Shown here: in pieces, positions 2,995-32,216 of the stretch | Position numbering within the stretch: the stretch's first letter is position 1 | Layout of the letters: each line of letters starts with the position of its first letter | IMG/VR virus record: IMGVR_UViG_3300009009_000024 | Location: 1 to 39,730 of that record | DNA length: 39,730 nt | DNA from: a virus | Reading direction: 5' to 3' (one strand) | The notes under the pieces: generated by a model | Databases searched by the model: none | Seen by the model: the letters and a program-made list of their open reading frames with translations, nothing else | Told to the model about the DNA's origin: nothing | Program-made: the position numbers and the translations under genes

Positions 2995-3765
2995 ATGGGC
3001 GAAAGCATAACTGTATATTTTACCAATCCGATCACAGGAGTTCCGGGGTCTTCTGGAACAAGCGGAACCTCTGCTGTTGGCTCTTCGGGGACGAGCGGGA
3101 CATCCCCTCTTGGGTTTACGTCGGGTACGTCAGGAACCTCCGGAGAAGGTTCGTCTGGAACATCAGGAACGAGTGGGTTGGCAGGTTCTCATGGTACGTC
3201 CGGAACGAGCGGCAGTTCCGGCGCGGGTTCATCTGGCACATCGGGCACGAGTGGAGTAGGAACGTCAGGGACATCCGGTTCGAGCGGGACATCGGCTGAG
3301 GGGTCTTCTGGAACCTCTGGAACTTCTGGGACATCTGCCCTTGGCGTCACCTCTGGAACCTCTGGCACTTCGGGTGCTGGCAGTAGCGGAACATCGGGTA
3401 CTTCCGGCTCATCCGGGACAAGCGGAGTTGCTGGCGGCGCTGGCTCAAGCGGTACGTCTGGCTCAAGTGGTAGCAGCGGGAGCTCCGGCGCGGATGGTTC
3501 TTCAGGCACATCTGGCACATCGGGGAACGGCACATCTGGAACCTCCGGTTCGTCAGGGTCTTCTGGCGGTGGCACTTCCGGCACCTCTGGAACCAGCGGC
3601 ACGATAGGTACAGATGCCACATTTAACCATATACACATCTCCGGCAGCGATGGAGCTGGAACGATTGGGACGACAGGCGTGGTGGTAAATGTATATTTCG
3701 GCACTGCGGCGACCATGGCTACGAATGGAATACCACAGGGATCGCTCTATTTTCAATACACGTAA
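2995..3765 (+). CDS. Collagen-like Gly-Thr-Ser tail fibre protein (first of three)
   Basis: This 256-residue protein has a short N-terminal anchor (MGESITVYFTNPITGVP). From about residue 18 to 205 it is an almost unbroken run of Gly-X-Y triplets, mostly GTS and GSS with some GTN, GAG and GVG. A C-terminal cap of about 50 residues follows, containing FNHIHISGSDGAG and ending GSLYFQYT. Triplet repeats with a non-repetitive cap are typical of trimeric collagen-like phage fibres, and the cap probably drives trimerisation or receptor contact. There is almost no proline, which is unusual for a triple helix. Confidence 0.75.
   Translation: MGESITVYFTNPITGVPGSSGTSGTSAVGSSGTSGTSPLGFTSGTSGTSGEGSSGTSGTSGLAGSHGTSGTSGSSGAGSSGTSGTSGVGTSGTSGSSGTSAEGSSGTSGTSGTSALGVTSGTSGTSGAGSSGTSGTSGSSGTSGVAGGAGSSGTSGSSGSSGSSGADGSSGTSGTSGNGTSGTSGSSGSSGGGTSGTSGTSGTIGTDATFNHIHISGSDGAGTIGTTGVVVNVYFGTAATMATNGIPQGSLYFQYT
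3046..3612 (+). repeat. Gly-Thr-Ser triplet array, fibre 1
   Basis: A nine-base periodicity encodes Gly-Thr/Ser-Ser triplets. Codons for the same residue vary freely (GGA, GGC, GGG, GGT; ACA, ACG, ACC; TCT, TCG, TCC, AGC), so the repeat is strict in protein but loose in DNA. Variant triplets (AVG, PLG, EGS, AGS) occur at irregular intervals. Confidence 0.85.
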
Positions 3766-3786
3766 TGCCACGGAGCGTGAGTGGAT

Positions 3787-3879
3787 ATGAGATATCTGTT
3801 GCTTGCAGTTTTAATCATCATAACCCTCTGGGCATGGAGCCTTGTGAGGGCGGGGAGTAAGGAATGGTTATTAGAATAG
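3787..3879 (+). CDS. 30-residue single-membrane-segment peptide
   Basis: The small frame reads MRYLLLAVLIIITLWAWSLV and then RAGSKEWLLE. It has one strongly hydrophobic helix of about 18 residues and a charged tail. GGAG at 3772-3775 lies 11 bases before the ATG. Its end overlaps the start of the next gene by 16 bases, which suggests translational coupling. It could be a small membrane or lysis-related peptide, or a chance frame. There is no supporting homology. Confidence 0.35.
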   Translation: MRYLLLAVLIIITLWAWSLVRAGSKEWLLE

Positions 3880-4184
3880 AAAAACGCAATGATAGAATTG
3901 GATGGGATGTAAGTGCAATCTTAACTGATGGCAAAACAACATCGGTCATTACCTTTTATTGGCCTTTTAAAGAAGAACCTGCGAAAGACGATGCCAAACT
4001 TCTTGAGAAGGTAAAGTATTTGCAAGAGAACTTTATTGAAGAAGGAAAAAATACGCAGGAGCCATCGTTTGCCAAATCCGAGGTAGAAGCCCTGCTTATT
4101 GAAAAAGGGTATCTGGTGAAAGAAGCAAAGCTTGAAGATTTAAAAACGGCTGCTGAGTTTATCTCTGAAAAGGTGGTGGAATAA
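3864..4184 (+). CDS. Unknown 106-residue protein
   Basis: GGGGAG lies just ahead of the ATG, and the gene ends in a one-base overlap with the tailspike start (TAATG). The N-terminal half looks like a beta-hairpin (MVIRIEKRNDRIGWDVSAIL, then TTSVITFYW). The C-terminal half is helical and charged (LLEKVKYLQENFIEEGK, and LEDLKTAAEFISEKVVE). No motif is recognised. Strict coupling to the tailspike gene suggests a chaperone or attachment role for it, which is inference. Confidence 0.5.
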   Translation: MVIRIEKRNDRIGWDVSAILTDGKTTSVITFYWPFKEEPAKDDAKLLEKVKYLQENFIEEGKNTQEPSFAKSEVEALLIEKGYLVKEAKLEDLKTAAEFISEKVVE

Positions 4185-5800
4185 TGGCTAATTGGTTTGT
4201 AGACTCTCAACTTGGTTCAGGGAACAACGATGGCACGACTACCGACCACGCATGGAGAGGTACAAGTGCAATCAAAACAGCAATGGAGTATGGTTCTTTT
4301 GCTGATGGTGATAGAATATGGATTAAAAGAGACTCCTCTTATGATGAGGGGGTCGCTAACAATGGCGCTGACATAGCTCCAACAGATGATGGTATTATAT
4401 CAGCTCCACTTTATTTTATCGGATGGCCTCGTCCTGAATTACCGAACACCACGATTACTCAGGCTGACTGGACGAACGGCAGTACTACGGTTGATAATAT
4501 TGTAGGAATAACCTGCACAAGGCTTTCACATCAGGCAAGATGGGCGGTGGCTCCGGACGGGAAGAAGTACCTAATTACACGAGTCATTGATGCCAACACA
4601 ATTATTGTGGACAGAGAATATGTCGGAAGCACAGTTACAGGAACAAGCGGGAAGTTCTCTATCGAGGCAGATGAAGATTATGCCACAGCACAGGCCATTG
4701 ACGATAGTGCATGGACAATAAAGTTAAGCACTTGGAGTGATGACTCTCACGATATGCCGTTTATAGATTTCAATGATGAAGCGTACCAGCTATTGGTTTC
4801 AGCGGATTTTTACTTCTCTTTTAGAAATCTTGAAATGAGATCAAGCAGCGATGCGGCCGGTATATTTGCCGTTTCTTCTGCTTATGTTTGCGAAGTAATC
4901 GGCTGTTTGTTTAAGCAAACATCTAATTCTTATGCAGTATTAGCGACCGGGCCAACGCTTATTATGGATAGGTTCACGATTGAAGGAACGGAAGATAGTG
5001 GTGCAAATACCGATCAGTATGGCCTTACTGCAGGTTATGGTATGTTTTCAATGCGAATTAGAAACGGTGCAATTTATAATACGGGCGGAGTTGGATTAGG
5101 GGCAAGATCGGGAGCTTATTTGTCGTCCGGAGTAATTGAAAATGTTAATGTTGGGGTAGAACAGGCTAACGGCACTTTTGATATATCCTTTGCCTTAGCA
5201 ACAAGCATGTATTTAAGAGATATTAAGTCGGGCGGAACAAATGGTTATGTGAATTTGCCAGTAACAGCAAACCCCATAGGACAGTTAAATATAGAAAATT
5301 ATGGTAAGGTTCTCGGAGCACATAAGTCTTGGTTTCCGGGCGGAGTATTAGAAAAGGTTGCAGTTACAGCAACAAATGCAAATAAAAAACTTTCAGACAA
5401 TGTGCTTAAGATCACACCGAACGCAAACAGTGTGCCTGCTGGAATTATGTATAAGCACATACTCTTTGAGGGAGAATTTGAATTACAGGCCGGAGCGCAA
5501 ACAATAAAGTTCTGGCTGTTTAATGATGTTGGAGCAACACTTAATAATACCACAGCAACAGATAACATTTTTCTTGAAGCGACTTATGTTGATTCTTATG
5601 ATGATACCACAGAATACACACAGACAAGAGTATTCAGCACAGAGATTGACATAGCGGATTCGGCAAGCGCAGATGACTGGGATTATCTGCAAGTATCTGT
5701 TAATCCGGCAACAGCGAGTAAAGTTCGGGTGATGCTGAAAATATCTTATTATGACACAACAGGGGATATACTTATAGACCCACAACCGGTGATAGCATAA
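4184..5800 (+). CDS. Tailspike-like right-handed beta-helix protein
   Basis: This 538-residue protein starts MANWFVDSQLGSGNNDGTTT followed by AWRGTSAI. That opening is common in pectate-lyase-like phage spikes. Residues about 200-370 are rich in short strands with Asn/Gly turns (LEMRSSSDAAGIFAVSSAYV, IENVNVGVEQANGTFDIS), as in a parallel beta-helix. Residues about 380-535 look like a separate beta-sandwich ending GDILIDPQPVIA. Host polysaccharide binding or cleavage is the usual role of such spikes, but no catalytic residues can be assigned by eye. It is coupled to the genes on both sides. Confidence 0.6.
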   Translation: MANWFVDSQLGSGNNDGTTTDHAWRGTSAIKTAMEYGSFADGDRIWIKRDSSYDEGVANNGADIAPTDDGIISAPLYFIGWPRPELPNTTITQADWTNGSTTVDNIVGITCTRLSHQARWAVAPDGKKYLITRVIDANTIIVDREYVGSTVTGTSGKFSIEADEDYATAQAIDDSAWTIKLSTWSDDSHDMPFIDFNDEAYQLLVSADFYFSFRNLEMRSSSDAAGIFAVSSAYVCEVIGCLFKQTSNSYAVLATGPTLIMDRFTIEGTEDSGANTDQYGLTAGYGMFSMRIRNGAIYNTGGVGLGARSGAYLSSGVIENVNVGVEQANGTFDISFALATSMYLRDIKSGGTNGYVNLPVTANPIGQLNIENYGKVLGAHKSWFPGGVLEKVAVTATNANKKLSDNVLKITPNANSVPAGIMYKHILFEGEFELQAGAQTIKFWLFNDVGATLNNTTATDNIFLEATYVDSYDDTTEYTQTRVFSTEIDIADSASADDWDYLQVSVNPATASKVRVMLKISYYDTTGDILIDPQPVIA

Positions 5801-6061
5801 ATGGCAGAGAATAATCCTATATGGAGTGATGGTAATGTTTACTTCTCTAATGCGACAACAGTATCTCCGGCTCCTGATTGGAGTGATGGGAATATTTCAA
5901 TCTTGTTGGAGTATGAAGCGCCAGCAGGTGGACTCTCAATACCAGTAGCGATGCAGGGGGCATGGAAAGAAGCGACACCAAAAATTATGATAAATAGTGC
6001 GTGGCACGATGTTGAAGCTGCAAAGATACTTATTGCCGGAGCATGGAAAGAAGTAACTTAA
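5801..6061 (+). CDS. Small tail protein with repeated GAWKE motifs
   Basis: This 86-residue protein starts on the base after the tailspike stop. The N-terminal half has a repeated WSDGN motif (IWSDGNVYFSNA and DWSDGNISILLE). The C-terminal half has three units of a phage tail repeat: MQGAWKEATP, INSAWHDVEA and IAGAWKEVT. Related Gly-x-Trp-Lys repeats are common at the ends of phage tail and fibre proteins and probably form small beta-hairpins. A fourth unit lies immediately downstream in another frame (6061-6099). Confidence 0.55.
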   Translation: MAENNPIWSDGNVYFSNATTVSPAPDWSDGNISILLEYEAPAGGLSIPVAMQGAWKEATPKIMINSAWHDVEAAKILIAGAWKEVT

Positions 6062-6099
6062 TGATTGCAGGCGCATGGAAAGAAATAACAGGTAGCTAA
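6061..6099 (+). CDS. 12-codon out-of-frame GAWKE repeat unit
   Basis: The TAA of the preceding gene overlaps an ATG (TAATG at 6059-6063), which opens a frame reading MIAGAWKEITGS and then stop. The peptide repeats the IAGAWKEVT unit just upstream but is displaced by one frame. It may be a detached repeat unit, a translationally coupled micro-peptide, or the relic of a frameshift. The next gene starts on the following base. Confidence 0.3.
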   Translation: MIAGAWKEITGS

Positions 6100-7347
6100 A
6101 TGCCCGAAGAACTCGACATAAACGTAACCATTGTAGCCGAACAACAGATCACTGCGACTCTGGACTCGGATGTACCTATTGTGGTCACATTTTCAAACCC
6201 CATACTTAGTGGTTTCAGTACCTCCGGTACAAGCGGGGTTTCCGGTACTTCCGGTACAAGCGGAGTCGGGACATCAGGGACAAGTGGAACGAGCGGAACA
6301 AGTAGCACGGGAGAGTCTGGTTCATCTGGTTCAAGCGGAACGTCAGGAACGGGTGGGCTGTCAGGGAGTAGCGGCACATCAGGAACTTCGGGCAGTTCTG
6401 GTTCAAGCGGAAGCGCTGGAACCTCCGGAACGTCTGGGGCTGGCACTTCAGGAACCTCTGGAACGTCTGCTTTGGGCGTTACATCAGGTACTTCTGGTAC
6501 TTCGGGTTCGGCAGGAACCAGTGGCTCTACGGGCACACACGGAACAAGTGGGTCTTCTGGGACGCATGGTTCATCCGGAACAAGTGGTTCGTCCGGCACT
6601 CACGGTACGTCCGGCACGAGTGGGACATCAGGAACGTCCGGATCGAGTGGAACATCAGGGTCTTCGGGCACCGATGGCACACATGGTACATCGGGTAGTA
6701 GTGGTATGTCGGGGACTTCAGGCACAAGCGGTTCTACGGGTAGCGCTGGAACAAGCGGTACTTCGGGCTCTACCGGGACACATGGCACAAGCGGTACGTC
6801 TGGAACCTCTGGCACAAATGGAAGCGCAGGAACCTCCGGGACAAGTGGCAGCTCTGGGTCATCTGGAACCAGCGGTACATCCGGCTCAGTCGGTAGTGCG
6901 GGTAGCCACGGCACAAGCGGAACATCGGGTACTTCTGGAACTTCGGGAACAAGTGGAAGCGCTGGAAGCCATGGAACATCGGGGTCAACCGGGTCGGCTG
7001 GCACATCGGGAACTTCTGGGTCAAGCGGAATTGCGGGAACTCATGGAACATCAGGTTCAAGCGGCACACACGGGACAAGTGGTTCTTCGGGCTCATCAGG
7101 AACCCACGGCACTTCCGGTTCATCAGGCACACACGGGACTTCAGGAAGTAGTGGAACATCCGGTAGCACTGGTACGCACGGAACAAGTGGTACATCTGGC
7201 ACATCAGGCACTTCGGGGTCGACCGGCACGCACGGCACATCAGGCTCATCTGGAACACACGGTACGAGTGGTACGTCGGGAACGGCGGGGAGCAGCGGAA
7301 CCTCGGACAACATGGGCATGATATGGGCAATAGTTTTTGGAGGATAA
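6100..7347 (+). CDS. Large collagen-like Gly-Thr-Ser/His fibre (second of three)
   Basis: This 415-residue protein starts with a beta-rich anchor (MPEELDINVTIVAEQQITATL, then VPIVVTFSNPIL) that recalls the start of fibre 1. From about residue 38 to 402 it is one continuous run of triplets: GTS, GSS, GTH, GST, GSA. It ends in a very short hydrophobic tail, SDNMGMIWAIVFGG, without a folded cap. Absence of a cap suggests that the next protein, which has an array and a C-terminal domain, may complete the fibre. The phage fibre call rests on the repeats and gene context. Confidence 0.75.
   Translation: MPEELDINVTIVAEQQITATLDSDVPIVVTFSNPILSGFSTSGTSGVSGTSGTSGVGTSGTSGTSGTSSTGESGSSGSSGTSGTGGLSGSSGTSGTSGSSGSSGSAGTSGTSGAGTSGTSGTSALGVTSGTSGTSGSAGTSGSTGTHGTSGSSGTHGSSGTSGSSGTHGTSGTSGTSGTSGSSGTSGSSGTDGTHGTSGSSGMSGTSGTSGSTGSAGTSGTSGSTGTHGTSGTSGTSGTNGSAGTSGTSGSSGSSGTSGTSGSVGSAGSHGTSGTSGTSGTSGTSGSAGSHGTSGSTGSAGTSGTSGSSGIAGTHGTSGSSGTHGTSGSSGSSGTHGTSGSSGTHGTSGSSGTSGSTGTHGTSGTSGTSGTSGSTGTHGTSGSSGTHGTSGTSGTAGSSGTSDNMGMIWAIVFGG
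6211..7305 (+). repeat. Gly-Thr-Ser/His triplet array, fibre 2
   Basis: About 1.1 kb encodes Gly-X-Y triplets with no proline. Histidine appears in recurring units such as GTHGTSG and GSHGTSG, which are rare in fibre 1. Synonymous codons are thoroughly mixed, so long exact DNA repeats are scarce despite the monotonous protein. Confidence 0.85.
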
Positions 7348-8373
7348 ATGATAGTCTTAGAAAATGCAGACATAATCGAAGGAGACGCCACAAGCGCAAC
7401 CGAGGTTGACTTCACAATACATGGGCTTGACAACAATGCTCTAAAGCAACTTGCGGACGGACAGCTTGCCAGCTCAAAGGGGACGATTTATACTGCTGAC
7501 TCTACAGATGTAATTACTTCAATTATTCTTGTAAATACAGGTGCTGCCCATAACCATGTTAACCTTTATCTTAAACCTTCTGCCGGAACTTCTCGCAGGC
7601 TCATCGCAAAAGACCTTCAACTTGAGTCTGGATATTCTCTACACTTTGATGGTGCAAAGGTAATGGTTCTCAATACCGCTGGGCAAATTATATACGTAGG
7701 TGCAACTGGAGCGGCAGGAACTTCTGGAACGAGCGGTAGCTCTGGTTCTTCGGGCAGTAGCGGCACTTCCGGTTCAAGCGGAACTCATGGCACATCCGGA
7801 ACATCTGGCAGCACAGGAACACATGGAACTTCTGGTTCTTCGGGCACACACGGAACAAGTGGTACCAGCGGGTCTTCTGGTACACACGGAACCTCTGGTT
7901 CAAGTGGTACCCACGGGACATCAGGCACAAGCGGCAGCGCAGGCTCATCGGGGAGTTCCGGAACCTCTGGTTCAAGGGGTACCCACGGGACAAGCGGTAG
8001 TTCGGGAAGTTCGGGCACGCACGGAACCTCTGGAACCTCTGGTAGTGGAACATCGGGCACTTCTGGAACCGGCGCTGGCGGAGGGATAGTCTGGACGCTT
8101 ATCACCGGAACATCCGGCACAGGGACAGCTAATTGTGGCTACATATGGGGTACGGGCGGGACAAACGGGACATTTGTGCTCCCCCCAACTCCAGTAACTG
8201 GTGATTACGTTTCTGTTGTTGACGGAGCAGGAAACTTCGGGACATTTAATCTTGTGATGGGAAGAGGAACTGCAAATATAATGGGACTCGGTGAGAATAT
8301 GACTGCAAACTATAATTACGCCAGAGTAGGTTTTGTATATGGCAATGCAACATGCGGCTGGAGGTTAGCATAA
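7348..8373 (+). CDS. Fibre with folded N-terminal domain, triplet array and tip domain (third of three)
   Basis: GGAGG lies just before the ATG of this 341-residue protein. Residues 1-115 form a beta domain of a type I associate with phage fibres (VDFTIHGLDNNALKQLADGQ, and later NLYLKPSAGTSRRLIAKDLQ, then YSLHFDGAKVMVL). Residues about 118-243 are GTS/GSS/GTH triplets. The last 95 residues (from about GGGIVWTLITG) resemble a recurrent fibre-tip domain with FVLPPTPVTGDYVSVVDGAG, then FNLVMGRGTANIMG. The tip domain probably gives trimerisation or receptor contact. Confidence 0.7.
   Translation: MIVLENADIIEGDATSATEVDFTIHGLDNNALKQLADGQLASSKGTIYTADSTDVITSIILVNTGAAHNHVNLYLKPSAGTSRRLIAKDLQLESGYSLHFDGAKVMVLNTAGQIIYVGATGAAGTSGTSGSSGSSGSSGTSGSSGTHGTSGTSGSTGTHGTSGSSGTHGTSGTSGSSGTHGTSGSSGTHGTSGTSGSAGSSGSSGTSGSRGTHGTSGSSGSSGTHGTSGTSGSGTSGTSGTGAGGGIVWTLITGTSGTGTANCGYIWGTGGTNGTFVLPPTPVTGDYVSVVDGAGNFGTFNLVMGRGTANIMGLGENMTANYNYARVGFVYGNATCGWRLA
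7700..8076 (+). repeat. Gly-Thr-Ser/His triplet array, fibre 3
   Basis: The array begins at GATGAAGTSG and ends at GTSGTGAGGG. It alternates GSSGTHGTSG-type units like fibre 2, so arrays 2 and 3 are more alike than either is to array 1. Codon use is mixed. One arginine-bearing triplet (GSRGTHG) breaks the pattern. Confidence 0.8.
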
Positions 8374-9416
8374 TGTCAGATATAAATCAATTTATAACAA
8401 GACAAGCGGTTAACATTGCAATGTTTTTCCCAAGTTCTACATCCCTCACTATTGCTTATACAGGGAAATATCGAATAACAGCATTAGGAGCAGGGGCTTC
8501 TGGCGCGGCTATTTTTACTACTACCACTGGTGGAGCTGCTTCTGGTGGTGGCGGTGGCGCTTTCTGTGAAAAAGAAATTATTTTAATTGCAGGTGATGTG
8601 CTTACAATCGTAACGGGAGCAAGGGGTGATAGCGTCGCTTCAACTTCTTCTGGTACAGGATTTGATGGGGAGGATGGAGGGACAACTACCGTAGTGTGCG
8701 CAGCCAGAGGTTTAAGTTTATCGGCAGGCGGTGGAGTGAAGGGAACTTTTACCGTTACTAATGATGTTACTGAAGCTGGCGGTGCAGGCGGCACAGCTTC
8801 AGGCGGAGATATAAATTCTACAGGCGGTGCAGGGGGTGCGGCAAAGCACTTAACGAATGGGGCCGAGGCTGGTGGTGGCGGTGCTTCCGGTAGTGTTTAT
8901 GGCACAGGCGGCGCAGGTGGTTCTGCAATATCAGCTGGAGCTGCTTGTGACTTAGCAGGCGGTGGTGGTGGCATAGGCGGAGCTGGTGGAAACGTAACCT
9001 CAGCAGCAAGTGGAGCGGGAGGCGGTTCTGGCGGAGCAGCAGATGGAGTAACTGCGGGGATAGGGAGAATTGGTACCGTGGCTTCTAATGCAGGAGCGAT
9101 TTATCTTAATGCAGAAAGTAAAACATCTACAGCTACTCTTGCCTGTTTTGAATCATTTATTGATCCTTTTAGAGCATTAACGGCTGGAGGCTCTGCCAGT
9201 AGTTATGGAGGCCCCGGTAGCGGTGGTGCAGGTAATAATGCAGGGTCGGGGTTCGCTGGTGGGATTTGTGGTGGCAGTGGAGGAACGGCAACAAGTGGGT
9301 ATGGTAATAATAACGCCCATCTGGGGGGTGGTTCTGGCGGAGCAGCATCAAAATCAATATCAGCAACATCAGGTAATGCAGGTAATGGGTTGGTAGTAGT
9401 AGAAAGGATTGGGTGA
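8373..9416 (+). CDS. Glycine-rich adhesin-like tail protein
   Basis: The ATG at 8373 overlaps the preceding stop (TAATG) and is preferred over one 21 bases upstream. The 347-residue product starts with a fibre-attachment-like segment (MSDINQFITRQAVNIAMFF). It continues as a glycine-rich beta domain with many runs such as GGAGGTASGG, AGGGGGIGGAGG and GGGSGGAA. This resembles the glycine-rich domains of phage tail adhesins, where poly-glycine II-like sandwiches present variable loops. Residues about 240-290 form a non-repetitive insert. It ends NAGNGLVVVERIG, the usual end of such domains. Confidence 0.6.
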   Translation: MSDINQFITRQAVNIAMFFPSSTSLTIAYTGKYRITALGAGASGAAIFTTTTGGAASGGGGGAFCEKEIILIAGDVLTIVTGARGDSVASTSSGTGFDGEDGGTTTVVCAARGLSLSAGGGVKGTFTVTNDVTEAGGAGGTASGGDINSTGGAGGAAKHLTNGAEAGGGGASGSVYGTGGAGGSAISAGAACDLAGGGGGIGGAGGNVTSAASGAGGGSGGAADGVTAGIGRIGTVASNAGAIYLNAESKTSTATLACFESFIDPFRALTAGGSASSYGGPGSGGAGNNAGSGFAGGICGGSGGTATSGYGNNNAHLGGGSGGAASKSISATSGNAGNGLVVVERIG

Positions 9417-9418
9417 TT

Positions 9419-9625
9419 ATGATATACGAAATATTAAATGATAAAAATGAAGTAATTAATAGAATTGTTGCTGATGAATCTTTTGTAGAAAAAGAATACC
9501 CAAAAAAATATAGGTTGGTAGAAGAACAACCTGAGATTACTCAGACTGTTAAACCAGAAACTTTAGAAGATAAAATTGAGGCCTTAACAAAAAAAGTTGA
9601 CGCTTTAATTGAAGGATTAAAATGA
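9419..9625 (+). CDS. Small coiled-coil tail-associated protein
   Basis: ATG 9419 is preferred because AAAGGA lies about ten bases upstream; GTG 9413, overlapping the preceding stop, is the alternative. The 68 residues read MIYEILNDKNEVINRIVADE and end with a predicted coiled coil (LEDKIEALTKKVDALIEGLK). Small proteins of this form commonly follow fibre genes in phages and are thought to help fibre assembly. It overlaps the next gene by ATGA. Confidence 0.5.
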   Translation: MIYEILNDKNEVINRIVADESFVEKEYPKKYRLVEEQPEITQTVKPETLEDKIEALTKKVDALIEGLK

Positions 9626-10563
9626 AAGAGCATATAATTTCGTATTTATTGAAAAACGATAAGTGGTGGAGCAGTCTGAACATCACAAATCATTCGTTTT
9701 ATCCGACATCCGTGCTGATTGAGTACTATTCGAGTACGGGGTCTTTGGTTAAAACGGAAGAGATATCTCTTGCTGCAAAATGCCAAAATGCGTTTTTGCT
9801 GACAACTCCTCCGCTCGGATGGGCAAGGGCTCTGTCCGGCGACAATGTAACTATCATGGAATTCTTTGGCAGTGGTTACGGTGTAAGCGACCCATTTCAA
9901 TCGGTAGTAATTCAACCACGGGATGTGATCGTGAAAAACATCACATACCCTTGCACTATAAAAACAGCCATCCGGAACACTTCATTTACAGAGGACATGT
10001 GCAACTGCAAATATTTTAACAAGGAATTCAGCGACATCATTGAGCATATCGGCAGAGCCGTGTTCTGCAGATATTCGATAAGGGCGGCAAAAAAACTGGA
10101 AGTAATTGATGGGAGTCCGCAGTCTGATTCAGATTGCCCGGAGCATCCGGCGGGGTCTCACCGTTTCGGCGATGCCGCTGATTTCCATTACTTTACACAT
10201 GGCGCAACGAACCATACTCAGCGTGGCACGCCGCTGATACCGATCTGGACAAATGGCTTGCTAAACAGTAATTTCGATAAAGAAAGGAACGCTGATTTTC
10301 TTCTGATGCTTTGCCGGATATTCCCGGTGGCTCACATTGCAATTGACCAGAGGATAAAAGATTCTCTGGCAATTCAGGCGTGGGGGATGTACGGGGAATC
10401 GGCTCGGCAGATAATTCTTGCAAGGGTACAGGGTGACGCGCCGGAGCTATATAATCATCACTTGCACATGCACGTAAATTATACGGGAGACTCCGGAGGC
10501 GTTCCGGGGTACGGCTATATTAACTGGGAGTCCTCTGATATGGACGTTAAGAAAGGAATCTGA
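9622..10563 (+). CDS. Endolysin-like zinc peptidase, M15/M74 type
   Basis: This 313-residue protein has two parts. Residues 1-110 form a beta domain (WWSSLNITNHSFYPTSVLIE, and later VTIMEFFGSG). Residues about 130-300 carry a zinc-peptidase pattern: SHRFGDAADF, with H180-xx-G-x-A-x-D187 as in M15 D-Ala-D-Ala peptidases, and HHLHMHV with H282-x-H284 as the second metal site. Cleavage of peptidoglycan cross-links is the expected role, either in lysis or in cell entry. No signal peptide is seen, so it would need a holin or be a virion enzyme. It is the first of three peptidase genes in a row. Confidence 0.6.
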   Translation: MKEHIISYLLKNDKWWSSLNITNHSFYPTSVLIEYYSSTGSLVKTEEISLAAKCQNAFLLTTPPLGWARALSGDNVTIMEFFGSGYGVSDPFQSVVIQPRDVIVKNITYPCTIKTAIRNTSFTEDMCNCKYFNKEFSDIIEHIGRAVFCRYSIRAAKKLEVIDGSPQSDSDCPEHPAGSHRFGDAADFHYFTHGATNHTQRGTPLIPIWTNGLLNSNFDKERNADFLLMLCRIFPVAHIAIDQRIKDSLAIQAWGMYGESARQIILARVQGDAPELYNHHLHMHVNYTGDSGGVPGYGYINWESSDMDVKKGI

Positions 10564-10565
10564 AA

Positions 10566-10847
10566 ATGAAATGGGATGGAACTGAGCGGAGAGAGAATAA
10601 GTTAAGCACCTACGATATTGAAGCGATTACGGCAGGAGTTTCAGAGGCAATTACAAATCACATTTGCAGATTTCCGAATGTATCAGCAAAAGAGATGGAA
10701 GAGGCTATACCGTTCATACTTTCATTCAAAGGTGTGGTTGAAAAAACAGGGTGGATTGTATGGAAAATCATTATTGGCGGGGTAGCTCTCGCATTGATGG
10801 GCTGGACGTTTTTAGGTTTTGTCACAAAAATTAGGGGGAAGGGATGA
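10566..10847 (+). CDS. Holin-like one-membrane-segment protein
   Basis: This 93-residue protein begins MKWDGTERREN, a charged start I associate with phage lysis-module proteins. It has an amphipathic helical middle and one membrane segment near residues 64-86 (WIVWKIIIGGVALALMGWTF), then a basic end (TKIRGKG). The topology and location between peptidoglycan hydrolases suit a class III-type or signal-arrest-like holin. It overlaps the next gene by four bases. Function is inferred from context. Confidence 0.5.
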   Translation: MKWDGTERRENKLSTYDIEAITAGVSEAITNHICRFPNVSAKEMEEAIPFILSFKGVVEKTGWIVWKIIIGGVALALMGWTFLGFVTKIRGKG

Positions 10848-11284
10848 TCATCTATAATCCTACTGGACTTGGTATCCGCTCTGATCCTGCCGGTGACGGA
10901 CATTTCGGAGCTTCAAGGGGCAATCGCAAGCATGAAGGGCTGGACTTTCTGGTCGCGCCGGGGCAGATCGTAAAAGCTGTGATTGCAGGTAAACTTGTCA
11001 GGGCATATCCATATGTCGATGATGTTATATTCGCTGGTTGCCGACTATGGGGCAAGGACTTCATGGCAAAGATGTTCTATTTCATACCACACGAAAAGCT
11101 GATTCATGAAGACGTTCTGGCAGGAGAAGAAATCGGTATAGCACAGGATATATCAGCAAAGTACGGGGGCGGGATGAAGGCGCACATTCATGTTGGTTTG
11201 TACTCGTTGAATCCAACAAAGCTGGTCAACCCGGAGGACTATCTGGACACGGAAGAAAATCGATTGAAGAACGGTGGGTACTGA
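10844..11284 (+). CDS. M23/LytM-type metallopeptidase
   Basis: This 146-residue single-domain protein carries the M23 zinc motifs: H30-xxx-D34 in RKHEGLDF, and H114-x-H116 in KAHIHVGLY. A glycine-rich strand (VAPGQIVKAVIAGKLVRA) and a late strand typical of the fold are present. M23 enzymes cut peptide cross-bridges of peptidoglycan. It has no signal peptide. It follows the holin-like gene and precedes a cysteine-peptidase-like gene, so a lytic or virion-entry role is likely. The length is short for M23 proteins, with no separate binding domain. Confidence 0.75.
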   Translation: MIIYNPTGLGIRSDPAGDGHFGASRGNRKHEGLDFLVAPGQIVKAVIAGKLVRAYPYVDDVIFAGCRLWGKDFMAKMFYFIPHEKLIHEDVLAGEEIGIAQDISAKYGGGMKAHIHVGLYSLNPTKLVNPEDYLDTEENRLKNGGY

Positions 11285-11285
11285 T

Positions 11286-11825
11286 ATGAGCACAGGAATA
11301 TTCAATAATATGAAGTCTGGGAAACTCGACAGATACAATGAATTAAAAGACCAGTTTAAAACAGGGGATATTCTCCAATGGTCTTCTGATTCCATGATAG
11401 GTTCGGCTATCCGCTGGCGCACCAAGTCGGACGTGAATCATTCTTCGATGGTAATCCGTATGTCAGAATGGGAAGGACTGGAACGCCGAAGGTTCCATAC
11501 GGAAGCGATGGGGAGAGGCGTGTATCCTAATCTGCTTTCAAACAGGCTCAAAGACTATAAAGGCAAGATGTGGTGGATGCCCCTGAAAGATTCATGGGAT
11601 GATAAAAGACAGCTTGTCGGGGAGCGACTGACTGAATGCTGGGGTAAAGAATACGATATGAAATCTTTGTTCTGGCAAGCAATCGGCAAGGTAAGCATAG
11701 ACGCTCAGCAGTTGTTCTGCTCCGAAGTTGTTGACTACGCTTTAGGATTCACAGGGCAGGCTCATAATCCCGGCGAACTGGAAACTTTAGGGATACATAA
11801 GCACAGGATTTTAATTTATGGATAA
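11286..11825 (+). CDS. Permuted NlpC/P60 (YiiX-like) hydrolase
   Basis: ATG 11286 directly follows the preceding stop; GTG 11274 is an in-frame alternative. The 179 residues match circularly permuted NlpC/P60 proteins: TGDILQWSS near residue 26, a conserved His in NHSSMVI (H52), KEYDMKSLF, and the nucleophile-like Cys in LFCSEVVDYAL (C145). Members act as peptidoglycan or amide hydrolases. It is the third cell-wall-type enzyme in the lysis module. A virion or bacteriolytic role is inferred. Confidence 0.65.
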   Translation: MSTGIFNNMKSGKLDRYNELKDQFKTGDILQWSSDSMIGSAIRWRTKSDVNHSSMVIRMSEWEGLERRRFHTEAMGRGVYPNLLSNRLKDYKGKMWWMPLKDSWDDKRQLVGERLTECWGKEYDMKSLFWQAIGKVSIDAQQLFCSEVVDYALGFTGQAHNPGELETLGIHKHRILIYG

Positions 11826-11971
11826 AATTAAAACAAAAGAAATCCGCAATAGCGGTAACGATAGCCTCCCGGACAGGGTTCATTACCCTTGTCGGAATCA
11901 TGCCCTCAGATGACGCGTCCGGGAGGTTTCACAAAAAACATGAGGGAGTCCTTACGAGGGCGAGGAGGATT
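11826..11971 (+). other. Gap before glycosyltransferase with in-frame open extension
   Basis: A 31-residue frame starts at ATG 11818 and ends at 11913. In another frame, the one used by the glycosyltransferase, the DNA is open from 11801. It reads protein-like text (KKSAIAVTIASRTGFITLVG, then MPSDDASGRFHKKHEGV) that joins the glycosyltransferase. The only ATG in that stretch is 11900, with no good ribosome binding site. A one-base indel in the A-run near 11824-11827 would link ATG 11818 to this frame. Confidence 0.4.
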
Positions 11972-14872
11972 ATGATTAAAAAAGTTGTATTTCATGGCAA
12001 TTTAAACGAACGAACGGGATACGGCATCCATGCGTCGAGGTTCACCGAACAGCTATCTAAATTGGTTCAGGTTAACTTTGAGGGCGATGGAGACGCCCAT
12101 ATCTCTCTGTATGACACAGTAACTGCATCTCAGGTAACAGAGAGGCACCCCTATCCGTCCATCCTTTATAACGTGTGGGAAAGCACGGAGCAGCCTTTGG
12201 CGTTCATCGACAAACTGAAGCTGTATGACCAGATGTGGGTTGCGTCGGAATGGCAGAGAGCTGCTTCTATCGCTCAGGGCATACCGGAGGAATACGTCAA
12301 GGTCGTCCCAGAGGGTGTAGACCCGGAGGTTTATAAACCCGGCGATACTGTTAAATCAGAAACATTCAACTTCGTTCACGTTGGCCAATTTCAGCCGCGT
12401 AAATCAACCCGTGAAATCTGCGAGGCATTTTTAAAAGCTTTTCCGGACAATGCCAATGTCCGGCTCCATCTCTCAGCAGACACGCTGTTTCCCTCCGACT
12501 CGTTCACTTCAACCGAAGAACGACTCCAAGCCTACGGTCTCGCAGATTCACGCATTATACCGGTGCATTTCGAGGAGAGAGCAGATTACATTAAAAGATT
12601 ACAATCTGCAAACTGTTTCGTATCATGCGCGCGCGCTGAAGGATGGGGACTGCCCATAATTGAAGCAATGGCTTGCGGTATTCCAACGATAGTGTGTGAT
12701 TATTCAGGTTCTACCGAGTATGCGTATGATGCGATCAAAGTCCCGGTCAAGGAGATGGTTAAGCCTTTTGGAATATATGGTAATTGGGAGGTGCCCGGTC
12801 AATGGGCTGAGCCTGATTTTGAAGTGCTTGTTGGCCAAATGAGGGATGTCTATGAAAACTACACAGTCCATAAGGACAAAGCTCTTAAGACTTCCGAGAT
12901 GATTCGGACGAAGTTCTCATGGGAAGCCGCGGCAAAGAAAGCGTATTCGATTATACAGGAATTCAATAAAGAAGTTCCTATTGATGCAGAAAAGGCTATC
13001 CGTATCGACGCTCGCAAGAAAGGCTATGAGATAACAGCAATGCACAAAAGAAAGGCCATCTTCTTTGTAGATTGCTGGCCGTCTTCGCAGCCGAAAATGG
13101 ATACCTTGACTGAGTCCATAAAACAGATTCAGGGGTTCGGCTATCCGGTGCTTGTGTCGTCCCATTATCCTCTGCCCGCTACGATAACTGAACTATGCGA
13201 CTTCTATATATACGAGAAGCAAGACATCATGTCGGGTGACGACAAGCCTGTTTATTGGCGCACAGGACAGGATGGCAAGATAGAACAGAAACAGTGCGGG
13301 CTTGAGTATCAGGGCGTAGCCGCTTTAAATTGTGCTCGTAACGCCATTGATTTCTGCCGGGGTAAGTACGACTGGATATATATGATGAGCGCTGACATGG
13401 AGGTTGACCTTGAGGACTGGCTTTCAAAGGTACACGCTTCTGACAAACCTCTTGCGTTCATGCCCTATGAGGGAATTAAGAACGGATTCGGCGGTGGGCT
13501 CTGGGCGGGTACGGCAGAAATGGCCGACAAGGTGTTCCCTTATCTGACCTCTTGGAAGCAGTATGCTGATATGTTCCCGGACGTGAGGTTCGTAGCCGAA
13601 CGATGGCTCTATAATTACATTGCGACAAAGACCGATATCGATTCTACGGTAGAATGGATTGAGTGCGAAACCACAAACCGGTTTGATAATGTAGACAGGG
13701 ATGTCTGGAAGGACGATGTTTTCCAATGTCATTTCGTTGACGGCCCCTATCTTAACATAGCCGGTCTATCCAACCGGGAATACGATATCTCATTCACCAC
13801 TCCTGATGCCAGAGACAATTATTCGTTGAAACAGAAAGTATCGATGTGGAGCAAGCCGAACATCAAGTATTACAAGGATTGGACGATAACAGCCAAACTG
13901 GATGGGGAGATAAAATTCCAGCACCATATCGATCTCAAAGACAAGAGGGTGATGATTCAGATGGGCTCTAAGGCGCTTGGAGACACTCTGGCATGGATTC
14001 CCTATGTCGATGAGTTCAGGAAGAAACACGGATGTCATGTCATCTGCTCAAGCTGGTGGAAAGACATCTTCGACTATCCGGAGATAGAGTTCGTTAACCC
14101 CGGAACCGGAGTCGAGAATATCTACGCCACTTATTCGGTCGGATGTTTCGATGGCCAGAAAGAGTTAAACCCTGTGGACTGGAGACTGACTACGCTCCAG
14201 AAAGTGTCATCTGACATCCTCGGTCTTGAATATGAGCCTATCAGGTGTAAACTGAAAGGGGCTGACAAGAAAAGCAACGGCGTTGCGCCTTATATCTGTT
14301 TCTCGGAATTCTCAACGATGCAGAACAAAATGTGGAACAGACCCGGAGCATGGCAGAAGACAATAGACCATCTGAAATCAATCGGATACAACTGTGTGTC
14401 TATCAGCGCTGAGAACACAACTCTCGAAGGGGTTATCAAGCATAACGGTCAGCCCATCGAGCAAACCATAGCGGATATCAACGGAGCACAGTTCTATGTC
14501 GGGCTCAATCACGGCCCAGCTTGGATAGCATATTCTCTTGGAATTCCCTGCATCATGATTACGGGTGTTAGCGAGCCGTGGAATGACTTCCCGAATCCCC
14601 ATCGGATTGCGATAGATGTCTGTCGTCCGGGGTGCTTTAACGACCCGTCGCTCCCGATTCAACGAGGGTGGCATTGGTGCCCGCGAGAGAAGGATTATGC
14701 CTGCACGAGAGAGATAACTGAAGAGATGGTGCGCGAACAGATTGCCAAAATACGAGGCGAATTTACTGTCGGGGAAAGGAAGATCGAAAAAAGCGATGTC
14801 GGAGGATACACAGGAGCTCTGAACCGTGGAATGTCCGCAGGAGGAGTCAGTTACGCACAACAAGCCAGATAG
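11972..14872 (+). CDS. Three-part glycosyltransferase with autotransporter O-heptosyltransferase-like C-terminus
   Basis: ATG 11972 follows GAGGAGG, though the spacing is short; ATG 11900 would add 24 residues. The product has 966 residues. Residues 1-340 are a GT-B group 1 (GT4) enzyme (HVGQFQPRKSTREICEAFLK; CARAEGWGLPIIEAMACGIP). Residues about 350-620 look GT-A-like, with YDWIYMMSADMEVD as a DxD-type site. From about 640 it resembles the O-heptosyltransferase family of autotransporters (TibC/Aah, TIGR04414): QMGSKALGDTLAWIPYVDEF and SSDILGLEYEPIRCKL. It keeps C884-x3-C888-x14-C903-x7-C911, like the TibC metal site. It lies inside the virion operon. A protein O-glycosylation role is inferred. 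Confidence 0.75.
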   Translation: MIKKVVFHGNLNERTGYGIHASRFTEQLSKLVQVNFEGDGDAHISLYDTVTASQVTERHPYPSILYNVWESTEQPLAFIDKLKLYDQMWVASEWQRAASIAQGIPEEYVKVVPEGVDPEVYKPGDTVKSETFNFVHVGQFQPRKSTREICEAFLKAFPDNANVRLHLSADTLFPSDSFTSTEERLQAYGLADSRIIPVHFEERADYIKRLQSANCFVSCARAEGWGLPIIEAMACGIPTIVCDYSGSTEYAYDAIKVPVKEMVKPFGIYGNWEVPGQWAEPDFEVLVGQMRDVYENYTVHKDKALKTSEMIRTKFSWEAAAKKAYSIIQEFNKEVPIDAEKAIRIDARKKGYEITAMHKRKAIFFVDCWPSSQPKMDTLTESIKQIQGFGYPVLVSSHYPLPATITELCDFYIYEKQDIMSGDDKPVYWRTGQDGKIEQKQCGLEYQGVAALNCARNAIDFCRGKYDWIYMMSADMEVDLEDWLSKVHASDKPLAFMPYEGIKNGFGGGLWAGTAEMADKVFPYLTSWKQYADMFPDVRFVAERWLYNYIATKTDIDSTVEWIECETTNRFDNVDRDVWKDDVFQCHFVDGPYLNIAGLSNREYDISFTTPDARDNYSLKQKVSMWSKPNIKYYKDWTITAKLDGEIKFQHHIDLKDKRVMIQMGSKALGDTLAWIPYVDEFRKKHGCHVICSSWWKDIFDYPEIEFVNPGTGVENIYATYSVGCFDGQKELNPVDWRLTTLQKVSSDILGLEYEPIRCKLKGADKKSNGVAPYICFSEFSTMQNKMWNRPGAWQKTIDHLKSIGYNCVSISAENTTLEGVIKHNGQPIEQTIADINGAQFYVGLNHGPAWIAYSLGIPCIMITGVSEPWNDFPNPHRIAIDVCRPGCFNDPSLPIQRGWHWCPREKDYACTREITEEMVREQIAKIRGEFTVGERKIEKSDVGGYTGALNRGMSAGGVSYAQQAR

Positions 14873-16561: not shown

Positions 16562-17035
16562 ATGGCATTAAAATTATCCACAGACTTAAAAAACTATATC
16601 ATCAATCAGGCCATTGTGAAGCAAATGGCCGGTACGATGGGAACTGGCGGAACAGCGTCCATTACAATATATACTGGGACGCAGCCTACCAATGCCGATA
16701 CCGCCCCTACAGGCACGTCCGGGACAGTGCTATGCACAATTATCAACATGGGATGGGGCGGGACTACCGGAGACCAAAGCACCGTTGGGTCTACAGCTGG
16801 AACCACCGGATTTGCTGCGGCAGCAGGTGGATATAGCGGAACTGCGGTATACACCGGGACAGCGGGATGGGCAAGGCTAGTAACATATGGAACTGGATTT
16901 ACTGGTTCCGCCGCTACCTTTAGAATTGATGGTAATGTTGGGACTGCTTCAACCTGCGAATTTGTCATCAACAGTGTGTCCATCACAAACCTTGGGGCCG
17001 TGACATTATTAAGCACACCTATTTCATTATCATAA
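16562..17035 (+). CDS. Phage tail protein with TGTQPTNAD motif (paralogue B)
   Basis: AAGGAGG lies before the ATG. The 157 residues start like the preceding protein (ALKLSTDLKNY versus AIRLSTGLRTA) and share ITIYTGTQPTNADTAPTGTS and a late AGWARLVTYGTG strand. Gly-Thr units are even denser (GTMGTGGTAS, STVGSTAGTTG, YTGTAGW). Tandem duplication followed by divergence explains the pair. Function is unknown, probably structural. Confidence 0.55.
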   Translation: MALKLSTDLKNYIINQAIVKQMAGTMGTGGTASITIYTGTQPTNADTAPTGTSGTVLCTIINMGWGGTTGDQSTVGSTAGTTGFAAAAGGYSGTAVYTGTAGWARLVTYGTGFTGSAATFRIDGNVGTASTCEFVINSVSITNLGAVTLLSTPISLS

Positions 17036-17047
17036 AAGGAGGCGTGC

Positions 17048-18142
17048 GTGTCTGATATAACTGGGACAATAATCATATCGCCAGTACTTTCGGGAGTTCT
17101 TCGGAGTACTGCAATAACAGGCTCAATCTCTATTTCCCCTCAAATAACGGGGGTGGTTGCAAGCCAGCTATATGCATCGGGGTCGATCTCTATTTCTCCG
17201 AAAATAAGTGGAACAGTCTTTGCCGCAGAAGGATTAGATGGCGAAGCTCCGTATATTTATTTTCCTGTTTTCACTGTGTCAGGAGAAGCCTTAAATGGTG
17301 AGTTTGGCGATGCATCAATCGAAATGCCTTTCTTCACTTTAGACGCCGAAGGCATAAACGATGCGCTCGGAGATGCCTCTTTTGAAATACCTGTCATATC
17401 CGTATCCGCTACGGGGCAGACCGACATAATCGGAACCGCTTCATTCTCTTTACCGAGATTGACCATAGATGCTTCAACCCTGATAAGCTCTATCGGTAAT
17501 GCTTCAATAACATTCCCTCTATTGTCAGTATATGGAGTCGGACAGGACGGTGCGGTGGGCACATTTAATAAGCCTCTGCCGATGTTCAAGCTATCTGCCG
17601 GAACGTTTAACGAGATACTCGGTAATGGCAATATAGTCTTGCCGATGCTCACTCTGATAACGTCTGTCTTACCAACAACCGCTTACCTCTCGATGGTTAT
17701 GAATCTAAAAAACAGGGCTTTGACCCTTTACGATAATTACGACTTCAACTCAATGTGCCGATTTAAAGATAAACATTTTGGCGCAACCAAGACCGGAATA
17801 TATGACCTTGATACCGGGACAACCGACAATGGGACTTTAATCGACTGGAACTTCAGAACAGGGTATCTCGACCTCGAACAGAAGAATAAGAAGAAACTTA
17901 AACAAGCATGGTTATCATATAAGTCTGATGGTGATCTAATCCTGACCGTTATTCAACCCAACGGCGATGAATACGAATACTCACTCCAAGGAATAGATAC
18001 AACCGAAACCGGGCATAGAGTAAAATTCGGTAAAGGAATCAGAAGCAAGTATGTCGCCTTGGATATTAAAAACGTGGATGGAAGTACGATTACTCTGGAC
18101 ACCTTGAAACTTCACTTTGATAAATTGAGTTTAAATAGATGA
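17048..18142 (+). CDS. Repeat-rich tail protein with C-terminal phage beta domain
   Basis: The start is GTG 17048, five bases after AAGGAGG. The 364-residue protein has two repeat sets. Residues 1-55 have three units of about 20 residues with the core GSISISPxIxG. Residues about 85-205 have six units of about 24 residues with the core GxASFxLPxxxxxA. From about residue 215 there is a conserved phage domain (MNLKNRALTLYDNYDFNSMC, then FKDKHFGATKTGIYDLD; KFGKGIRSKYVALDIKNVDG) seen in tail proteins. Repeats probably form a beta-solenoid-like rod. It overlaps the next gene by ATGA. Confidence 0.55.
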   Translation: MSDITGTIIISPVLSGVLRSTAITGSISISPQITGVVASQLYASGSISISPKISGTVFAAEGLDGEAPYIYFPVFTVSGEALNGEFGDASIEMPFFTLDAEGINDALGDASFEIPVISVSATGQTDIIGTASFSLPRLTIDASTLISSIGNASITFPLLSVYGVGQDGAVGTFNKPLPMFKLSAGTFNEILGNGNIVLPMLTLITSVLPTTAYLSMVMNLKNRALTLYDNYDFNSMCRFKDKHFGATKTGIYDLDTGTTDNGTLIDWNFRTGYLDLEQKNKKKLKQAWLSYKSDGDLILTVIQPNGDEYEYSLQGIDTTETGHRVKFGKGIRSKYVALDIKNVDGSTITLDTLKLHFDKLSLNR

Positions 18143-30600: not shown

Positions 30601-30981
30601 TCAGGCGGTGAGCTCTATCGTAAAGTGATGGATGTGCACGACTGACTGCAAAGACAACACCGGCGAACTCACATTCAGTTCGCAGCCAGAAGAACCGACT
30701 GTCGCCAGCAGAAGCGCTCCGTCGCCGAATTCAATCAGAGCGCTTTTAGCGGTAGCACTTTTTTTCGCGGTAAGCTCTATTCCGTTTTTCAGTGATATTG
30801 TGCCGTCGATTATTTTTATGTCAAAGAATGCGGTATCGGTGATAACATTTCTACAATAGACCCTATCTATATCTACATCTCTGACGGCCACATCCAGAAA
30901 TTCGATGCTCCAGCCTTTCTTTGGGATATCCTCTGGGTTGCCTAAACAGAGATACTCTTTTGCTTTTTTATTCAGCCTCAT
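30601..30981 (-). CDS. Unknown 126-residue protein ending the minus-strand operon
   Basis: It starts MRLNKKAKEYLCLGNPEDIP in an ATGA overlap with the radical SAM gene upstream, so it is the last gene of the minus-strand operon. The body alternates strands (WSIEFLDVAVRDVDIDRVYC; TISLKNGIELTA; GALLLATVGSSGCELNV), suggesting a small all-beta protein. Its stop lies five bases from the end of the convergent virion operon. There is no recognisable motif. Coupling to the radical SAM gene suggests a partner or substrate role, which is speculative. Confidence 0.45.
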   Translation of the reverse strand: MRLNKKAKEYLCLGNPEDIPKKGWSIEFLDVAVRDVDIDRVYCRNVITDTAFFDIKIIDGTISLKNGIELTAKKSATAKSALIEFGDGALLLATVGSSGCELNVSSPVLSLQSVVHIHHFTIELTA

Positions 30982-32216
30982 ATTACACCCCCGTAAAGCC
31001 GTCCGTCGCCGAGCTTTCTCATTGCCCGATGGATAAACTTATGGATACCATCATAGGTGAGTTCGTCTATCTCAGGCATACACTGTGTCTCCACAGCCAG
31101 CGCGAAGACCTTCTGGAGAACATAGGCCTGCATCTTATATTCCTCGGAGAAATTCAGCACCGACCTCTCAAAGAAGTTGTCGCCCATATCTGAATAATCC
31201 CCTGTATACCAGCCCTTCTCTTTGCACTCATCTCCAAGCGCTGTACCGGGATAAGGGGCGAAGATGGACGACCACGCGTAGTCGGGCTTGCATTGGATAT
31301 TCACCTCAAGGGTCTGGAGGTCGTCTTCGATGGTCGAGGTCGGTAGCGCCAACATATTTTGTATCATCAGCTTGATTCCAGCCTTACGCAACAGCGTTGC
31401 GCTTCTTATAGTTTCCTCATTTGAGGTCTGCTCCCGGCCTATGACTTTACGAAGTTGATCGCTCGCTGTTTCGAGGGCTATCCGGGTGGACAGGCAGTTG
31501 GCCTCCTTAAGTAGAGATACGCGTTCTGGAGTCACCTGAGAGGGTCTGAGGTGGCAATGGAAGGGTATTCCTATCCTGTCCTTGTATTGTTCCGAGAACT
31601 CTTTTAACCAACCCAGAGATACTCCGAAACATGAGTCCTGAAAATACACAAACTCTGGACGGACAGAATCGATCTCAGCTATCACGTCATCAACAGACCG
31701 GAACCTAACTTTGGGTAAATCGGGATACATTTTTATCCATTTGTCGTTAAAACAGTAGCGACACCGGTACGGACATCCGCGCGATGTGATAAAGTCCCTT
31801 ATCTTCATATCAGGGAAGTCGTCTCTTACCGGCCAAGGAATAGAATCCAAATTTGGGTAGCTTGTCTCTGACCCAAGGAAGTCAGCAAGCCAGTTTTCTG
31901 CCTCTCCCGGAATAATTAAATCAAATTCTGAGATTAGAAAGTCTCTGGGAAAGAACGTCGCATGAGGCCCACCTACGATAATCTTGCTATCCGGCAATAT
32001 CATCCTCAGCCTTCTGGCAAGATGGATAAACGACTGTTGATTGCCCGTAAGTACAGATAGACCGACTATGTCTGGTCGCCATGCGTTCGCCACGATACAA
32101 GCGTTCTCTATGGCTACGATGCGTGTCTCTGCCCCAGCCTCTCTCGCCACAGCCGACAGGTACATAGGGCCTAACGTCTCAATTGCCTTGGATTTAACAA
32201 CAAACAGTATCTTCAT
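30978..32216 (-). CDS. Radical SAM protein with B12-binding-like domain (A)
   Basis: This 412-residue protein has an N-terminal B12-binding-like Rossmann domain (about 1-115; LPDSKIIVGGPHATFFPRDF and LIIPGEAENWLADF), but no clear DxHxxG motif. The radical SAM domain follows, with C148-xxx-C152-xx-C155 in SRGCPYRCRYCFN for the 4Fe-4S cluster, and TRIALETASDQLRKVIGR typical of this superfamily. Members do methylations, ring formation and other radical chemistry. Neighbours suggest a carbohydrate or lipid-linked substrate, or a peptide. It overlaps both flanking genes by ATGA. Substrate is unknown. Confidence 0.75.
   Translation of the reverse strand: MKILFVVKSKAIETLGPMYLSAVAREAGAETRIVAIENACIVANAWRPDIVGLSVLTGNQQSFIHLARRLRMILPDSKIIVGGPHATFFPRDFLISEFDLIIPGEAENWLADFLGSETSYPNLDSIPWPVRDDFPDMKIRDFITSRGCPYRCRYCFNDKWIKMYPDLPKVRFRSVDDVIAEIDSVRPEFVYFQDSCFGVSLGWLKEFSEQYKDRIGIPFHCHLRPSQVTPERVSLLKEANCLSTRIALETASDQLRKVIGREQTSNEETIRSATLLRKAGIKLMIQNMLALPTSTIEDDLQTLEVNIQCKPDYAWSSIFAPYPGTALGDECKEKGWYTGDYSDMGDNFFERSVLNFSEEYKMQAYVLQKVFALAVETQCMPEIDELTYDGIHKFIHRAMRKLGDGRLYGGVI

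Follow-up and report, generated by a model that had tools for sequence, protein, structure and literature searches.

The window analyzed here is the whole of a 39,730-base viral stretch (IMG/VR virus record IMGVR_UViG_3300009009_000024), in which three collagen-like fibre genes rich in serine and threonine codons share the plus strand with a gene for a three-domain glycosyltransferase. Every long open reading frame (ORF) from position 199 to 30595 lies on that strand, with short gaps between them, and the run includes head, connector, and tail-type genes (phrog_399, the head-closure family phrog_8040, and phrog_3758). The minus strand, from position 30601 to the end of the stretch, holds a cassette of sugar and methylation genes. 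An earlier note on this DNA, made from its letters alone, had placed the fibres and the enzyme in one operon. The single strand and short gaps make this arrangement no more than plausible. Terminator matches across the stretch stayed at the level of the shuffled background, and promoter matches were only moderately above theirs.

The three fibre-like ORFs described in the earlier note were recovered on the plus strand, and together they encode 435 Ser and Thr residues versus 11 prolines. All three matched the Pfam Collagen family (PF01391). ORF 1 (2995-3765) encodes 256 amino acids (aa) with interrupted Gly-Thr-Ser and Gly-Ser-Ser arrays, comprising 46 Gly-X-Y triplets (counted, for each fibre ORF, within runs of at least four triplets), 116 Ser+Thr, and 4 Pro (Pfam Collagen, 2.5e-08), and its product is a predicted acceptor. 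ORF 2 (6100-7347; 415 aa), the predicted main acceptor, contains 111 such triplets, 91 of which form one unbroken run spanning aa 130-402, along with 214 Ser+Thr and 3 Pro (Pfam Collagen, 1.6e-45). ORF 3 (7348-8373; 341 aa), also a predicted acceptor, has an N-terminal domain, a Gly-X-Y region at aa 118-234, and a C-terminal domain, with 39 triplets, 105 Ser+Thr, and 4 Pro (Pfam Collagen, 2.3e-15). Position X of the triplets is mostly occupied by Thr, with Ser next, and position Y mostly by Ser, with His next. The Gly-Thr dipeptide occurs in the fibre ORFs at 2.7-3.2 times the shuffled expectation, the corresponding GGNAC motif is almost confined to the coding frame, and many different Gly, Thr, and Ser codons are in use in the arrays. 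With the Gly-Thr excess nearly restricted to the reading frame, the feature belongs to the protein and is not a product of chance. The ORF at 8352-9416, which adjoins the fibres, encodes 354 aa, 93 of them glycines, which do not keep a Gly-X-Y phase over any long stretch; its product is possibly a fourth, glycine-rich fibre.

The glycosyltransferase is encoded at 11900-14872 (plus strand) and comprises 990 aa, in which GT4, GT-A-fold, and TibC-type domains follow one another. The GT4 (GT-B) domain (11975-12967; approximately aa 26-356) matched Glycos_transf_1 at 1.8e-13 and phrog_2170 at 1.3e-29. The middle domain (12986-13717; approximately aa 363-606), modeled with a predicted local distance difference test (pLDDT) score of 77, has a GT-A fold; its Foldseek matches were glycogenin and other GT-A enzymes (E ~1e-5), and its D-x-E-x-D motif is invariant across nine relatives. 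The TibC-type domain (13718-14767; approximately aa 607-956) is complete, with a beta-barrel, a catalytic GT-B core, and an iron finger. The C-terminal part matched TibC in the PDB at 5.2e-40 in a search (alignment E 1.7e-40) and scored 202.2 bits against TIGR04414, just above its cutoff of 200, bearing out the three-part enzyme with a TibC-like C terminus that had been read from the sequence. The structural comparison with TibC proposed at that time also came out positive: the predicted model overlays the TibC crystal structures 4rap and 4rb4 with a target template modeling (TM) score of 0.84 and a root mean square deviation of 2.2 Å over ~375 columns, so that the overlay covers the beta-barrel, the GT-B core, and the iron-finger region. 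The full-length 990-aa model, computed as a monomer, has a mean pLDDT of 82.7 and a predicted TM score of 0.46, which leaves the mutual orientation of the three domains uncertain. When viral loci were retrieved with the GT4 domain only, 31 of 32 also encoded a TibC domain; the two domains thus appear to act as a unit, and there were therefore no GT4-only phage loci from which to build a control set. One phage protein of 2,859 aa (L173:270-8849) is a giant fusion with GT4 at its start and a TibC-type domain at its end.

The functional residues of TibC are the catalytic Asp110, the donor-site residues Thr226, Lys230, and Trp305, and four iron-binding cysteines (PMC4358343). In the alignment, the equivalent of the catalytic base is Asp695 (13982-13984, plus strand), and, of 154 viral TibC domains, 152 have Asp at this position and the other two a gap. 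The three donor-site residues are retained as Thr806, Lys810, and Trp875. The aligned iron-finger cysteines C908, C912, C927, and C935 (14621-14704, plus strand) are conserved in 146-150 of the 154 domains, with gaps in the remainder; the first pair is spaced C-x3-C, compared with C-x2-C in TibC. A further TibC residue, Arg286, contacts the adenine of adenosine diphosphate (ADP)-heptose, and its Ala mutant is inactive (PMC4358343). The aligned residue here is Thr856 (14465-14467, plus strand), and Arg stands at this position in only 36 of the 154 viral domains. The record showed no autotransporter. From its sequence, we predict that the 990-aa protein works like members of the BAHT family, to which TibC belongs, although we do not file it as a heptosyltransferase.

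We next examined how often such enzymes and arrays occur together, a comparison that the earlier note had suggested. Searched with a six-sequence alignment of the TibC domain, viral DNA gave at least 582 stretches that encode relatives, and the locus counts refer to the best 80 of these, with flanks of up to 10 kb per side. A Ser/Thr-rich Gly-X-Y array was present in 45 of the 80 TibC loci, compared to 0 of 31 and 0 of 80 random viral loci. Among whole records, scored for a Gly-(Thr/Ser)-rich DNA pattern, 28 of 42 with the TibC-type enzyme carried the pattern and none of 50 random records did, the random contigs being unmatched for phage type. The reverse test gave the same picture: TIGR04414 was matched in 27 of 80 records selected by their arrays (26 above cutoff) versus 0 of 54 random records, and, among records of at least 60 kb, in 17 of 24 with arrays versus 0 of 10 random ones. 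The two elements also lie near each other. In 29 of 34 records the array was no more than 10 kb from the enzyme, where random placement would give 9.7 (p 5e-5). With enzymes clustered at 60% identity and the 40 loci picked by the array pattern excluded, 25 of 35 clusters had an array nearby, at a median distance of ~1.7 kb and on the same strand in 19 of the 25. In the Microcystis phage Mel-JY01 (190 kb), for example, the gene for a giant GTS/GSS fibre lies upstream of a GT4-TibC fusion at a distance of a few genes, and the 735-kb phage LR756501 also carries an enzyme and array pair. A control anchored on tail sheath genes, in which numbers were small and many contigs short, found arrays in 4 of 22 loci with the enzyme and 1 of 58 without it (p 0.019). 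The pairing is real in these data, strong against random contigs and weak against the matched control, and it is not obligatory. Because it recurs in many unrelated viruses, glycosylation of fibres may be widespread among viruses.

The minus-strand cassette bears on the sugar. It encodes a glucose-1-phosphate cytidylyltransferase-like protein (35522-36292) for the synthesis of cytidine diphosphate (CDP)-glucose, whose full-length match to TIGR02623, by far its best family, reached 268 bits and is below the cutoff of 300.25; a CDP-glucose 4,6-dehydratase (33807-34883; TIGR02622, 381.6 bits, cutoff 278.45), which makes CDP-4-keto-6-deoxyglucose; a sugar C-methyltransferase of the Methyltransf_13/23/14 type (32593-33810; PF08484, 1.9e-55; PF08421, 2e-24); and a rhamnosyl O-methyltransferase/CmcI-type methyltransferase (36858-37589; PF04989, 1.3e-66). 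Two B12-binding radical S-adenosylmethionine (SAM) enzymes (30978-32216 and 37767-39224) and a small ORF (32213-32644) complete the set. The cassette is common to the window and to records L004, L162, and L011, the largest among relatives of the enzyme, at ~45-61% identity: the cytidylyltransferase-like protein has orthologues at 57-61% identity in all three, both methyltransferases are kept in all three, and the first radical SAM enzyme is 57-58% identical and the small ORF, with the same neighbours, 32-38% identical in all three, while the second radical SAM enzyme was found at 49-56% identity in two, L162 having no match to it. These were whole-record searches; tblastn over the locus flanks, which were too short, found no full cassette. 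Two further minus-strand ORFs at the cassette, 34822-35439 and 39214-39729, resemble each other in sequence, and the former matched HNH and AP2 models, as in homing endonucleases.

Heptose, the sugar suggested by the earlier note, is not supported by these observations. The gene gmhA was found neither in the window nor in 40 of the 42 other records searched (absent from 41 of 43 in all), and self-supply of heptose was rejected as a candidate on the basis of its presence in only 2 of the 43. The replacement of Arg286 by Thr, the absence of gmhA, and the presence of the CDP cassette together point away from heptose and towards a methylated CDP-deoxysugar that the phage makes itself. Our best guess is that the donor in this lineage is most likely a C- and O-methylated CDP-6-deoxyhexose made by the phage and not host heptose; a C-methylated 6-deoxyhexose has seven carbons too. 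That the fibres instead receive host ADP-heptose, with the CDP cassette serving something else, we consider doubtful; this variant departs from the glycosylation model given below in the donor alone. Membership in TIGR04414 above its curated cutoff would fit heptose, a Gram-negative host would supply heptose nucleotides, and most phages with the TibC-type enzyme have no CDP-glucose dehydratase above cutoff. Set against this are the Thr in place of the adenine-reading Arg286, the scarcity of Arg there among viral domains, and the occurrence of the cassette in the window and three relatives, with no dehydratase above cutoff in any of 34 random records.

Taken together, we propose, with a probability of roughly 0.7, that the window encodes a phage system for glycosylating virion proteins, in which the predicted enzyme decorates the collagen-like fibres. 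The phage would produce its own nucleotide sugar through the minus-strand cassette, and late in infection, ahead of assembly, the enzyme would glycosylate the Gly-Thr/Ser-Ser fibre proteins on Ser and perhaps on Thr as well. The protein-linked sugar may be attached to array Ser residues by the TibC-type domain, with its fusion partners GT4 and GT-A adding or extending the glycan, an order of action that is itself conjectural. The glycosylated proline-poor Gly-X-Y fibres would then be built into the virion, where the benefit might be solubility, stiffness, protease resistance, or adhesion.

Several points weigh against this proposal. In 8-14 of the 42 large records, a figure that varies with the scoring of arrays, the enzyme occurs without a Ser/Thr array. 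The earlier note had named this situation as speaking against a pairing of enzyme and fibres; the association is strong without being universal. Some phages with the enzyme instead carry collagen arrays that are rich in Pro and very poor in Ser/Thr, the relatives L161, L163, and L164 have no Gly-X-Y array in their available flanks, and the fibre of L162 is Ser/Thr-rich yet not Gly-X-Y. The known acceptors of the BAHT family are beta-helical autotransporters, compared to the collagen-like triplets predicted here. Because Ser, and not Thr, is the residue modified by TibC and AAH (PMC4358343), Thr, which the earlier note had put forward as the main acceptor, gives way to the Y-position Ser as the likeliest site. 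The cassette is missing from two other relatives, whose shorter and possibly fragmentary records measure 41.9 and 43.2 kb, and the case for the donor draws on one residue together with gene content.

Other repeats were seen beside TibC-type enzymes. In L242-L245, L254, and L268, the enzyme's neighbour is a long collagen-like fibre that is rich in Pro and has only 5-8% Ser/Thr at its X/Y positions; such a fibre may be an acceptor of another kind. Poly-Thr (TTTTTAAP) repeats (L196:4092-5459) and mucin-like Pro-Thr-Asn repeats (L218:5100-6758) occur in two phages with the enzyme and no Gly-X-Y array of scored length in their flanks; other such phages show no recognisable repeat.

Gly-Thr enrichment in the window extends to virion proteins other than the fibres. 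The phrog_399 protein of the head module has two Gly-Thr-rich loops (1403-1432 and, with the sequence GTSGTVGTAGSGG, 1595-1633; plus strand), and its ORF contains 6 in-frame Gly-Thr versus 1.4 expected. Both loops are missing in the homologues from Acidovorax, Pseudomonas, and Pseudoalteromonas phages, in which no match to the enzyme was found. A strictly in-frame Gly-Thr excess was observed in the non-fibre virion ORFs at 199-780, 1235-1978, 2231-2596, 2606-2983, 16562-17035, and 17048-18142, and among relatives the loops vary in position and length, with an insert of ~110 aa in L241. As a general glycosylation tag of phages with the TibC-type enzyme the excess was rejected (median 1.05, the same as the 1.05 of random loci); it is a trait of this lineage. 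The head and tail loops could be extra acceptor sites. A broader proposal, which we advance only tentatively and at less than even odds, is that TibC-type enzymes fused to other glycosyltransferases form a widespread and previously unrecognised class that decorates proline-poor, collagen-like Gly-Thr-Ser fibres, the glycan replacing hydroxyproline as stabiliser, and that this lineage encodes the whole pathway, including the methylated CDP-deoxysugar, with glycan-bearing Gly-Thr loops studding its head proteins too.

These loops raise the alternative that virion proteins are glycosylated but mainly on head or tail Gly-Thr loops or other fibre domains, the arrays merely sharing the tail-fibre locus. 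Such a scheme fits the Gly-Thr enrichment that this lineage shows in virion proteins besides the fibres, the absence of the loops from homologues in enzyme-less phages, and the existence of array-less phages with the enzyme; we nevertheless consider it unlikely, because the excess outside arrays is not general in phages with the enzyme and array linkage persists across dereplicated enzyme clusters. That linkage could itself arise from position, as in T4-like phages the enzyme adjoins the genes for tail sheath and fibres, a place in which arrays are found too. Coincidence at a diverse tail-fibre hot spot that gathers arrays and glycosyltransferases without a functional link would explain this, and the matched control is small, but sheath-anchored loci still favored arrays with the enzyme and the whole-record association is independent of locus position, which makes chance neighbourhood quite improbable.

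The enzyme and the cassette might also act on the host, altering lipopolysaccharide, capsule, or surface-layer glycans to block superinfection or change a receptor. Some phages are known to alter the serotype of their host through glycosyltransferases, and CDP-6-deoxyhexose genes are typical of O-antigen biosynthesis. Yet TIGR04414 enzymes are protein O-glycosyltransferases, the gene sits among virion genes and is linked to Ser/Thr arrays, and among the scanned ORFs none matched a flippase or polymerase family, so that we regard a host-surface role as very unlikely. Two observations touch on the wider biology of the phage. The ORF at 10844-11284, in the same gene run, encodes an M23-peptidase-like protein scoring below the Pfam cutoff, perhaps a lysis enzyme, and a close relative of the phage (L469; JAHEYD010000005.1) was binned in a Candidatus Nitrosotalea groundwater metagenome-assembled genome, probably as a mis-binned phage contig, or else as a hint of the host.

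Glycosylated triplet repeats have precedents. On Bacillus spores, BclA-type Gly-Pro-Thr repeats are decorated with rare, methylated deoxysugars that are O-linked, and they show that bacterial triplet repeats can be glycosylated, but BclA is Pro-rich, modified by host-encoded enzymes, and located on the spore surface. Mimivirus, like the virus studied here, encodes both collagen-like proteins and a glycosylating enzyme. The latter, the lysyl hydroxylase-glycosyltransferase L230, modifies those proteins at hydroxylysine; there are no Ser/Thr arrays, and the fold family differs. The closest relatives are the BAHT enzymes TibC and AAH (TIGR04414; 4RAP/4RB4; PMC4358343), which share with the studied enzyme the fold, the catalytic Asp, the donor-site Thr/Lys/Trp, the four-Cys iron finger, the N-terminal beta-barrel, and repetitive Ser/Thr/Gly-rich acceptors (predicted here) encoded nearby. 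The studied enzyme differs in being viral, in its fusion to GT4 and GT-A domains, in the Thr replacing the adenine-contacting Arg, and in its likely CDP-sugar donor. According to a passage in PMC12363180 that describes Freeman et al. (2023), glycosyltransferases of mycobacteriophages Che8, Corndog, and Myrna modify the phages' own virion proteins, the acceptors being capsid and tail tube proteins as opposed to the fibres predicted here; no mycobacteriophage was among the tblastn matches to the enzyme. A protein of an uncultured Caudovirales phage (A0A6J5SVC1, BFVD) is named "Glycosyltransferase Aah/TibC", a database name that states no acceptor or fibre pairing. Virion self-glycosylation and phage proteins labelled Aah/TibC were thus already known, and the new elements are the pairing of TibC-type enzymes with fibres and the CDP-sugar cassette: the open-access literature yielded no report linking such enzymes with phage Gly-Thr-Ser fibres, although earlier work may be missed, and none of a phage-encoded CDP-sugar cassette for such fibre glycosylation.

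Many environmental phages carry Gly-Thr/Ser arrays, for which the literature searched offered no explanation. A linked, conserved protein glycosyltransferase provides a testable answer to how proline-poor triplets fold and stay soluble, and it extends a family of bacterial adhesin-modifying enzymes to viral fibres. Such enzymes are possible tools for producing glycosylated collagen-like materials. If the proposal is true, a large class of phage tail fibres would be heavily glycosylated, which would affect virion adsorption, persistence, and behaviour on purification.

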